A stretch of DNA of 58,969 bases from Bacteroidota bacterium (GTDB taxonomy: Bacteria; Bacteroidota; Bacteroidia; B-17B0; Aurantibacillaceae): positions 1-58,969 of the forward strand of contig JACDED010000011.1 in the NCBI GenBank assembly GCA_013816615.1, in the 5' to 3' direction. The translations under genes and the position numbers were made by a program. Below are positions 14,956 through 18,818 of the stretch, piece by piece. Positions within the stretch are counted from its first letter, which is position 1. Every line of letters begins with the position of its first letter. Below the pieces are notes generated by a model. The model was not told the DNA's origin and made no database searches. It worked only from the letters and a program-made list of their open reading frames with translations.

Positions 14956-15042
14956 TTTATTATTTACAAATATTAAATTATAAATTTATGTTGTTTGATC
15001 TACAAAAAATTAAAAAACTAATAAAATCTTTAATTTTTTAAT

Positions 15043-15259
15043 TTGGGCGTTGCCTCCGGCCGCGCTTTCCGTTTCAATCTTTTTGTTCGTACCTCTCAAA
15101 AAGGATTTTCACTACAATCACTAACGCGGAAGCACGTACCGGATTTGCGAAGATTTGCGTGAGGGATAGAGCCATTGTTTGAGCTCTTTTTTATATGCCT
15201 GTAAAGGCAAATAAAAAAAGCGAGTGGCGAAAGCCCGACCCAAAAAGGGACACGCCCAA
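15043..15259 (+). repeat. structured dispersed repeat, copy 1
   Basis: This is a 217-base non-coding element with short terminal inverted repeats, TTGGGCGT at 15043-15050 and ACGCCCAA at 15252-15259. It is homologous to 17095-17288 in the same orientation: shared blocks include CGCGCTTTCC/GCAT, CAATCTTTTT, the CACTACAATC segment and an ACGCG block. Internal hairpins include GCC-TCC-GGC and GCCTgtaaAGGC. It fills most of the 412-base gap at 14956-15367. Its size, TIRs and internal pairing suggest a non-autonomous mobile element or a structured RNA. Confidence 0.75.
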
Positions 15260-15308
15260 GCCCCGCACTATTTTTTATAACAACACTATTATTTTGAAAC
15301 TTCCAATA

Positions 15309-15345
15309 AAAAAACTCCCAACAACTTATTTGCCGGGAGTTTTTT
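15309..15345 (-). terminator. terminator of the downstream minus-strand gene
   Basis: AAAAAACTCCC pairs with GGGAGTTTTTT around a 15-base loop. On the minus strand it follows the stop of the T9SS gene by about 20 bases; it could also act on the plus strand. Confidence 0.8.
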
Positions 15346-15367
15346 TTAATCGTGTAAATTTTAATAA

Positions 15368-16957
15368 TTATTCAACAATAATTTTAATTGTTGCCTGCGT
15401 ATTGTTTTGAGTGATCTTTACAAAATACAATCCTTTAATTTGATCTTGTAAATTGAAAGTATGAGTTCCGCTTTCCATTTTTTCATCTAAAATAACCTGG
15501 CCTAAAATAGTGGTGATAGATACCTGGGCACTTGAATTTAATTCTAAGTTAAACAAACCATTAGATGGATTAGGATATAATTTAATATCTGAACTTAAAA
15601 GCTGATTAGAAGAAATACCAGTACAAAATACAATTCCTTGAGTAACGGTTGTTGAACTTGAACAACCATTCGCGTCCGTACCATTCACAGTATAAGTTGT
15701 ACTTACTGTAGGAGTAACAGTTATACTTGAACCTGAACCACTTGGAAGCCAGGAATAAGTAGTAGCGCCTGTTGCGCTTAAAGTAGCTGTTTGGCCAACG
15801 CAAATTAAACTTTGGTTAGAGCTTGCGCCAACAGTTGGTAAAGCATTTACAGATACTGAGCTTACTGCTGTGTTTGAACCAACACAACCCGCTGCACTTG
15901 TACCTGTAACATTATAGCTGGTGTTAGTTGTAGGCGCAACAATAGTATTGCCGCCACTAATTGTATATGTACTTGCACCGCCAGGCGCTATTGTAAATGA
16001 TCCACCCGAACAAATAGTGCCGTTATTAACTGAAATAGTTGGAGTAGCATTAACAGTAACGTTGCTCACGGCTGAATTAGTACAACCTGAGGCGTTAGAG
16101 CCGGTTACTGTGTAAGATGAGTTTGTGGTAGGTGTAACAATAGCATTTCCGCCACTGAACGTATAGGTACTAGCTCCATTTGGCGTTATAGTAAAATTAT
16201 TACCAGAACAGATCGCGCCACTATTAACTGTAACTGTTGGCGATGGGTTTACCGACACTGATATAGAACTTACATTACTTGGAGTATTTACTGCAACTGA
16301 GTAATTTGTTGTAACGCTCGGAGAAACTGTTATTGAAGGTGTATTTGCACCGGTACTCCAGGTGTAAGTTGTTAGAGCTGTAGAATAATTTATTTTACCA
16401 TTCCATACTCTGGGAGAAAATGGAGATCCGCTAAATGGATATTCTATACCAATACCTTCAATAAACTGAAGGTTAGCGTCTGCGGAATATACGTTTCCTA
16501 CAGTAGTGCCATTTGTATAGTTCAATGAAACCGCTGTATTGGTAGATGTTACATAAAAAGCATATGTTTGGCCAGCCGGAATTGTTACGTTTACAGCAAT
16601 TGGCACTGGTGTAGCAATGCCAAAAGGTTGAGCCACAACGGCAGCTGTTCCAACTAAAGTCCATGAGGCAGCAGTATTCTCAAACCCCACATAAGAGTTT
16701 GCTTTATAATATATTGAAATAGAAGTATTAGCCATTGGATGGGCATCAAAACTATTTATAGTTATTGTATTAAGTGCAATAATGTTAAACATATTCCCTC
16801 TGTGATTATTACCACCGGTTAAAGTAGTGAGTAATTGATTGCCGGGAGCAGAAAGGGTTGTACTTTGACCATCACAAATAAGCGTGTTAGTTGCCACAAT
16901 TTGGCTATTGCAATTTAAATGAATTACAAATGTTAGAAGTAGTAAAAGTTTTTTCAT
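15368..16957 (-). CDS. Secreted Ig-like repeat protein with T9SS type A sorting domain
   Basis: This 529-residue exported protein has a signal peptide to about residue 19. Its N-terminal domain (about 20-200) resembles the jelly-roll-like domains of secreted Bacteroidota proteins. Four or five Ser/Thr/Asn-rich repeats of about 75 residues follow, each with G-A-S-T-Y-T and S-Y-T/N-V-T-G motifs. The type A sorting tail at about 455-529 (Y-P-N-P-S-N-G ... G-L-Y-F-V-K-I) directs T9SS export and surface anchoring. The repeats suggest adhesion, but the ligand is unknown. The gene is bracketed by the two dispersed repeats at 15043 and 17095, both on the plus strand. Confidence 0.88.
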   Translation of the reverse strand: MKKLLLLLTFVIHLNCNSQIVATNTLICDGQSTTLSAPGNQLLTTLTGGNNHRGNMFNIIALNTITINSFDAHPMANTSISIYYKANSYVGFENTAASWTLVGTAAVVAQPFGIATPVPIAVNVTIPAGQTYAFYVTSTNTAVSLNYTNGTTVGNVYSADANLQFIEGIGIEYPFSGSPFSPRVWNGKINYSTALTTYTWSTGANTPSITVSPSVTTNYSVAVNTPSNVSSISVSVNPSPTVTVNSGAICSGNNFTITPNGASTYTFSGGNAIVTPTTNSSYTVTGSNASGCTNSAVSNVTVNATPTISVNNGTICSGGSFTIAPGGASTYTISGGNTIVAPTTNTSYNVTGTSAAGCVGSNTAVSSVSVNALPTVGASSNQSLICVGQTATLSATGATTYSWLPSGSGSSITVTPTVSTTYTVNGTDANGCSSSTTVTQGIVFCTGISSNQLLSSDIKLYPNPSNGLFNLELNSSAQVSITTILGQVILDEKMESGTHTFNLQDQIKGLYFVKITQNNTQATIKIIVE

Positions 16958-17094
16958 GTTTTTTTAAAAGTTTAAGGAGTAAATGTAATTAAATTTCCTA
17001 AAAGATTGCAAGCAAATTGAAAGGCTTTTCACGGGCGTAAAATTGAAAAATTAGTGTTGAAACAATAAATTCTTTCTACTGTTTCTTTTTTAAT

Positions 17095-17288
17095 TTAGGC
17101 GTGACCCTTCGGGTCGCGCTTTGCATTCCAATCTTTTTATTCGTAACCTCATAGGAGGATTTCCACTACAATCGCTCACGCGTTCGGAATGCCTGCGCCA
17201 GGGATGCGAAGGGTTTAGTTCTTTTGCCTGCTAAGGCAAAAAACCGTAGCGAAGCGGAGTCCGTAGCAGCCCGTTAAGGCGCCCCAAA
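17095..17288 (+). repeat. structured dispersed repeat, copy 2
   Basis: This element of about 194 bases is homologous to 15043-15259. It begins TTAGGCGTGACC and ends GGCGCCCCAAA. The first hairpin here is GACCC-TTC-GGGTC, whereas copy 1 has GCC-TCC-GGC at the same place, so the pairing is kept while the bases change. A second hairpin is TTGCCTgctaAGGCAA. It occupies the middle of the 421-base gap at 16958-17378; the rest of that gap shows nothing else I can identify. Confidence 0.72.
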
Positions 17289-17378: not shown

Positions 17379-18818
17379 ATGAGGATTTCCATTCTTTTCG
17401 CATTTATATTTTTTGGTTTCTATGATGTTTCATCGCAAACTTATAATTATTATTTTGGCAACCTGCACTCTCACACTGCAATGAGCGATGGTAATAAAGA
17501 TTCTGCTACAACAGGTGTTAGTACACCTGCAGGCGCATATCCTTACGCGCAGTTAAGCCAGAACTTTGATTTTTTAGGCGTATCAGAACATAATCATTAT
17601 TCGAACAGCCATAATCCCGGTTTTAAAAAACAGTGTTACGCACAGGGTTTAACAATGGCAAATAATGCTAACCAGGACGGAACTTTTTTAGCTTTATTTG
17701 GAATGGAATGGGGTGTGTCATCTACTTATAACGGACACATGGTTATTTATGGTTTTAATCAGTTAGTTGGCTGGGAAACTTCCGTGCCCGGTGTTGTTGG
17801 AAATAACTACGATGTTTTTAATGCTAAGACAGATTACGATGGGATCTTTAGAAAGGTAAAGAACAATCCAAATGCTTTTTGTTATCTCGCGCATCCCGGC
17901 TTTAGTGATTATACAACAAATGGCACATCATCAACTGCATTAGCATATTCTGCTTACAATTCTGCTTACGATAGCGCTATTGTTGGTACGCCCTTGCGCA
18001 GCGGATTAGCATTTAGCACTTTTACAGATTATAGTGATTATCCTTTAGGTAATTACTTTGCGTATTATAAAAAATTATTATCTGTTGGTTATCATCTTGG
18101 TATCGGTTACGATCACGATAACCATTATACTACTTTTGGTAGAAGCACCGCAGGAAGATTAGTGGTATTAATGCCTTCGTTAACACTCGCCAATCTTACA
18201 ACAGCCATGCAGCAAATGCATTTTTATGGTAGCGATGACTGGAACGCTAAAATTGATTTTAATATGAGCGGCAATATTATGGGCTCTGTTTTAACCGGAA
18301 GTACAAATCCTGTTTTTAATGTGGTGCATAACGATATGGATGGCGAGCAGGCGGACAGTATTAAGATCTGGAAGGGGATCAACGATCACACCGGCACACT
18401 GCCAACCGTTGTTTATACATCTTTAAATAATAATACAGCAACGTATAACGACCCCAGTGCAATGATCACAAATATGGAATATTATTATTTTGCTGAGATA
18501 AAACAAGCTGATGGCCAATGGATAGTTACAACACCTATCTGGTACACCAATACATCTTCGGTTGGAATAGCAGAATATAAAAATGATTTTGAGTTCAACT
18601 TTTTTCCAAATCCTGTAAACGAAGCATTAAATATAAGCATGAGCGAGTGCGCGGATTATAAAATCTCATTGATCGATATTTCAGGAAGAAAAATAACCGA
18701 AACTTCTTTTTACGACAAGTATATTACGCTTGATGTGAAGGCGGTTACGCCCGGTATTTATACTTTAGAAATAAAAGGAGAGAATACTACTAAATTTAAA
18801 AAAATAATTGTAGATTAA
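17379..18818 (+). CDS. Secreted PHP-family metallohydrolase-like protein with T9SS type A tail
   Basis: This 479-residue protein starts with a signal peptide (ending S-S-Q, residue 20). It is followed by a PHP-like domain: N-L-H-S-H-T-A-M-S-D-G (His30, His32, Asp37), G-V-S-E-H-N-H-Y (about 67-74), L-A-H-P-G and Y-D-H-D-N-H-Y further on. These are the metal-ligand motifs of the polymerase-and-histidinol-phosphatase superfamily, which hydrolyses phosphoesters. The C-terminal region of about 75 residues is a type A T9SS sorting domain (F-P-N-P-V-N-E-A ... P-G-I-Y-T-L-E-I). I infer a secreted phosphoesterase; the substrate is unknown. It is convergent with the Sua5 gene, with no gap. Confidence 0.85.
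   Translation: MRISILFAFIFFGFYDVSSQTYNYYFGNLHSHTAMSDGNKDSATTGVSTPAGAYPYAQLSQNFDFLGVSEHNHYSNSHNPGFKKQCYAQGLTMANNANQDGTFLALFGMEWGVSSTYNGHMVIYGFNQLVGWETSVPGVVGNNYDVFNAKTDYDGIFRKVKNNPNAFCYLAHPGFSDYTTNGTSSTALAYSAYNSAYDSAIVGTPLRSGLAFSTFTDYSDYPLGNYFAYYKKLLSVGYHLGIGYDHDNHYTTFGRSTAGRLVVLMPSLTLANLTTAMQQMHFYGSDDWNAKIDFNMSGNIMGSVLTGSTNPVFNVVHNDMDGEQADSIKIWKGINDHTGTLPTVVYTSLNNNTATYNDPSAMITNMEYYYFAEIKQADGQWIVTTPIWYTNTSSVGIAEYKNDFEFNFFPNPVNEALNISMSECADYKISLIDISGRKITETSFYDKYITLDVKAVTPGIYTLEIKGENTTKFKKIIVD

Follow-up and report, generated by a model that had tools for sequence, protein, structure and literature searches.

The two repeats analysed here belong to a dispersed family of paired hairpin units with interchangeable arms, and the arm of one module is the catalogued RNA family Flavo-1. 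The units share a common foot, their stems covary, they are spread across many genera of Bacteroidota, and their flanks carry no target-site duplication. They are probably non-autonomous dispersed palindromic repeats of the REP/REPIN type, copied as single-stranded DNA by a trans-acting enzyme.

Structure of the elements

The window, a 58,969-nucleotide stretch covering contig JACDED010000011.1 of a Bacteroidota bacterium, contains both repeats, with natural limits at 15042-15260 (element 1) and 17094-17288 (element 2) and T-runs outside. Each element consists of two hairpin units, inverted relative to each other and separated by a short spacer. The unit is about 80-135 nt long and forms a three-way junction. 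Its parts, in order, are a T-run and GG, the 5-bp stem P1, the small hairpin P2, the long arm P3 and the closing strand P1'.

The left unit of element 1 (15042-15127, minus strand) is of module A, which carries the Flavo-1 arm, and matched the covariance model R1 over its full length with 90.9 bits. Its P1 pairs 15047-15051 with 15123-15127, and P2 lies at 15052-15060. After a spacer at 15128-15156 (5 to 28 nt in other copies) follows the right unit, module B (15157-15260, plus strand; R1 35.7 bits, full length), with P1 formed by 15157-15161 and 15251-15255. The module B pattern of this unit recurs in other genera. The left unit of element 2 is again module A (17094-17181, minus strand; R1 77.8 bits), with P1 formed by 17099-17103 and 17177-17181. 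The spacer at 17182-17194 and the right unit at 17195-17288 (plus strand; P1 17195-17199 with 17278-17282) were, like the spacer of element 1, delimited from the sequence; this right unit is of module C, which is present in 14 distinct units of the same genome.

The first-pass annotation had described two homologous repeats in the same orientation with terminal inverted repeats, and both were found where it had placed them. The homology holds for the left halves, which align in the same orientation with 77% identity over 74 nt, but not for the right halves, which are unrelated modules. The first hairpin, GCC-TCC-GGC in one copy versus GACCC-TTC-GGGTC in the other, was seen as described. The terminal inverted repeat of element 1, TTGGGCGT/ACGCCCAA, is perfect in that copy. 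It is the foot common to two units, not one helix spanning the element. P1 pairs inside each unit, as GCGTT/AACGC (left) and GCGTG/CACGC (right) in element 1 and as GCGTG/CACGC (left) and GCGCC/GGCGC (right) in element 2. RNA folding of element 1 beat all 200 shuffles (z -3.0); element 2 gave a z of -2.2 against its shuffles.

Relation to Flavo-1

Read on the minus strand, the left halves of the two elements correspond to Rfam Flavo-1 (RF01705). The match of element 1 (15054-15130) scored 47.1 bits, above the gathering score of 42 bits, and that of element 2 scored 34.6 bits, below it. Flavo-1 was discovered computationally and classed as "probably" an RNA, not cis-regulatory (Weinberg 2010, PMC2864571). 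It is thus the described family of the kind foreseen by the earlier suggestion of a structured RNA. The Rfam model covers the P3 arm of module A only. The full unit adds P1 and P2 and occurs as inverted pairs, and its foot is common to at least four further modules that are not in Rfam, among them the right-half modules B and C.

Copies and modularity in the genome

The genome holds at least 58 BLAST matches to element 1. The terminal pattern matched 67 times, as compared with 7 for the reversed control pattern, which is far above chance. At least 63 distinct strict units were found (17 of module A, 15 B, 14 C, 9 D, 8 E, none unclassified); these copy numbers are lower bounds, as the searches scored about 20-40 candidates per genome and the assembly is in 246 contigs, several of which end at or near units. 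The earlier proposal of a dispersed repeat family is thereby borne out, and the case of only two copies, which would have spoken against it, did not arise.

Reading of 70 loci revealed a mosaic of P1 types and P3 arms, with at least five module classes (A-E) of the P3 arm freely combined. The 15 strict two-unit elements fall into 8 module combinations, P1 type and module are mixed, and the left and right P1 of an element usually differ. No homotypic (same-class) pair was observed among these 15 elements, where 3 were expected (P 0.03). An attractive explanation is that long near-perfect palindromes may be unstable and lost. By simple ORF calls, 16 elements are flanked by convergent genes, 15 by tandem genes and 4 by divergent ones.

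Some loci depart from the two-unit layout. At L048:563-930, L071 (minus strand, about 340-658) and L024:1512-1742 a single unit is followed by a second common repeat of about 200 nt (GATCTTTTGCAGAGATAGCTGCT...), which continues to GTGACAAAAG in two of the three; these are possibly composite elements with a different right end. In two units on other contigs of the genome (L021:1-124 in C87; L023, about 1590-1700, in C218), the hairpin is broken off at the contig end by one and the same sequence, which terminates in ACTAATTAGTGTTCTA and resembles an insertion sequence that has landed in the hairpins.

Covariation of the stems

The pairing of P1 was tested in 118 candidate units whose anchors were chosen without use of pairing. 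P1 was fully complementary in 67 of them, while 5000 shuffles gave 23 on average and 35 at most. In addition to the three pairs seen in the window, the variants include GCGTA/TACGC, GCATG/CATGC, GCAAG/CTTGC, GCGCG/CGCGC and CGGGT/ACCCG. An alignment of 22 module-A units from several genera showed 25 named pairs to be 96.6% paired, with 18 of the 25 changed on both sides; slid controls were at most 52% paired. Model R1 found 97 matches across 89 sources; both left units of the window are among them, as is the right unit of element 1. In the alignment of these matches the named pairs were 94.9% paired, 24 of the 25 pairs were changed on both sides, and 398 both-side cells were counted versus 96 in shuffles; this alignment leans toward the model and phylogenetic relatedness inflates the both-side counts, though the variants span many genera. 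Module B shows covariation of its own (CA/TGG, GG/CCG).

Where the first-pass annotation had set its structural claim against a lack of significantly covarying pairs, nearly every pair was thus found to vary on both sides. It had also taken the retained pairing as a sign of selection on structure. The covariation is real and selection is its likely source, though not the sole route to it, as arms can also come to match when imperfect palindromes undergo template-switch correction (PMC7202029). The units would then be passive structured repeats whose arms match mainly through this documented process rather than by selection. One-sided changes are nearly absent, which fits concerted change of both arms. 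Template switching would however tend to erase mismatched internal loops, yet the A arm has kept its 3x3 loops, which are rich in purines on the strand of Flavo-1, across genera. It also leaves the dispersal of the units unexplained, and as the main account it is exceedingly unlikely.

G-U pairs make up 1.4% of the standard pairs, which is low by the general expectation for RNAs. The near absence of such pairs tentatively favours a DNA hairpin over an RNA.

Distribution across Bacteroidota

Matches to Flavo-1 were found in 76 of 198 genomes of the class and in 46 of the 120 genera sampled. The extended full-length unit was found in 87 of the 198 genomes, roughly two fifths, and in 52 of the 120 genera. 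Other genera often carry single units. Module B was found in named genomes of Pontibacter, Flavobacterium, Lacihabitans and Botryobacter. At 45 loci of other genomes the orientation to genes was mixed and the context not fixed. Among plasmids and phages, the Flavobacterium-type unit gave one 27-nt match on a Treponema plasmid and none on phages.

Genomes with one or two units include three loci, of about 13, at which a lone unit lies beside a restriction-modification type gene: N6_N4_Mtase (L286), a DpnI family gene with HNH (L290) and an MmeI-type gene (L161). Such units perhaps arrived with horizontally acquired DNA.

These data bear on the view, expressed in the Rfam label "Gene; sRNA", that Flavo-1 and its sister modules are functional structured RNAs, either small RNAs or cis-regulatory elements. 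The family's entry in Rfam, its published class as a probable RNA, the deep covariation, and the conservation of unit positions between two Flavobacterium species and between two Pontibacter species agree with it. But the two-unit elements carry a unit on both strands, gene context and orientation are inconsistent, and the G-U pairs are scarce. In addition, RNA-seq of F. psychrophilum showed Flavo-1 matches indistinctly sense or antisense, many of them outside transcribed regions (PMC9723704). A functional RNA is therefore unlikely.

Neighbouring genes

The elements lie outside two genes for Por_Secre_tail (type IX secretion, Pfam PF18962) proteins, one at 15368-16957 on the minus strand and one at 17379-18818 on the plus strand, the latter with weak Pfam similarity to DUF3604. 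No functional tie between the elements and these flanking genes was found. The idea that the elements could drive recombination of the 15368 gene did not hold up: the longest exact run common to the two is 11 bp (TTTTTTAATTT) and their right halves are unrelated. Homologous recombination between the copies is accordingly unlikely. A clear intrinsic-terminator-like hairpin at 15307-15349 of the window (CTCCCAACAA...TTGCCGGGAG plus a T-run) adjoins the 15368 gene at its 3' end and is separate from the element.

Units also lie just upstream of homologues of the 17379-18818 gene in two other genomes, as in the window (L177:1221-1373 in G066; L180:2732-2834 in G128). Their arms and P1 are different. 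A conserved position beside this gene was considered and rejected, as arms and P1 differ and the other homologues examined carry no unit; the recurrence was taken as chance or a favoured site.

Mobility and the search for an enzyme

No target-site duplication was detected above shuffled flanks (observed 2.08, shuffled 2.56). No empty site and no insertion polymorphism came to light that would demonstrate movement. A search for an autonomous partner near low-copy units revealed no transposase. In one complete genome (G218; ori at about 2.55 Mb and ter at about 1.3 Mb, placed by GC skew) no replication-strand bias was seen, with 9 units leading and 13 lagging, a small sample of 22.

The earlier proposal of non-autonomous mobile elements stands as to a dispersed family but not as to a classical MITE, and neither the target-site duplications nor the matching transposase that it had marked for a search came to light at the loci examined. 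A MITE would be mobilised by a DDE transposase and bounded by the TTTTTGGGCGT terminal inverted repeat. That repeat is perfect in copy 1 and the ends are common to many copies, as in MITEs, but the common foot of the units explains this likeness. The lack of target duplication argues against a DDE-transposase element, single units are common, P1 pairs inside units with left and right P1 usually unlike, and no transposase with these ends was seen. The MITE reading is quite improbable.

A second candidate was mobilisation by RAYTs, the enzymes proposed to move REPINs, which are two inverted REPs with a spacer that show compensatory changes (PMC3116915). The units could be the cognate repeats of a known Bacteroidota RAYT subclass, 2.4 or 2.6. 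Many of the unit-bearing genomes also encode RAYTs (NF047646), one genome (G083) has a unit directly downstream of a Y1-type gene (L206), and in the genome studied here and in G010 degenerate pieces of units are found no more than about 0.6 kb away from RAYTs. However, 50 RAYT loci (129 kb) contained a single strict unit locus, a density no higher than in controls, and examination of these loci and of 33 genomes gave no enrichment and no support. The RAYT of the genome itself (C127; L110:1036-1602, NF047646, 109 bits) has its own palindrome GGCACAGGTGAATACCTGCGCC upstream, and the RAYTs of the genus are likewise flanked by other, different palindromes. Several genomes rich in units are without a detectable RAYT. 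Four genomes (G006, G016, G033, G039) carry units but neither Y1_Tnp nor RAYT matches, and three more (G073, G199, G206) carry units with no RAYT match. The atypical palindromes that flank TnpA-REP subclass 2.6 genes (PMC6006769) resemble the units in being dispersed intergenic secondary structures in Bacteroidota, but the palindromes beside the 2.6-like genes in this analysis are simple and different ones. The double-foot REPs of subclass 2.4 likewise have a foot at each end of the palindrome, but bear GT[AG]G with its complement (PMC6006769), which the units lack. Cognate repeats of either subclass are very unlikely.

A proposed model for dispersal

In architecture REPINs and BIMEs come closest to the elements, which share with them the arrangement as inverted hairpin doublets with a spacer, the intergenic location, the many copies, the occurrence as singles and doublets and the compensatory changes (PMC3116915). 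They differ in several respects. REP units measure 20-40 nt and do not have the three-way junction of the longer units described here. The halves of the present elements are heterotypic modules. The GTAG/CGTC tag is absent, the foot in aligned units being a T-run plus GG (or AG), and no cognate RAYT is flanked by these units.

The family itself, its anatomy, modularity, covariation and distribution and the lack of target duplication were observed directly; movement, an enzyme, a single-stranded intermediate and a mode of arm exchange are inferred. In the proposed model for these REP/REPIN-type repeats, the unit would fold as single-stranded DNA into P1, P2 and the long P3 arm with its conserved purine-rich internal loops. 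A single-strand-acting, HUH-like enzyme would recognise the P1/P2 foot in trans and would place copies of single units or of pairs in AT-rich DNA between genes, leaving the target unduplicated. Arms could be exchanged because the foot is common and, as proposed, the P3 arm is not read for its identity; such exchange would generate the mosaics of modules A-E. A more tentative possibility is that the elements represent a new class of mobile single-stranded DNA hairpin in Bacteroidota whose arms are interchangeable, and that their mover is an undescribed enzyme other than a RAYT that recognises only the common foot.

Implications

A catalogued "sRNA" family without known function can be reread as part of a modular DNA repeat, in which it forms one of the arms. 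The extended unit model annotates hundreds of intergenic sites and warns against taking Flavo-1 matches for sRNA genes. The question it poses is which enzyme moves hairpins with a common foot and differing arms in genomes without detectable RAYTs. If the more tentative reading is true, one foot-reading enzyme would mobilise a whole library of arms.
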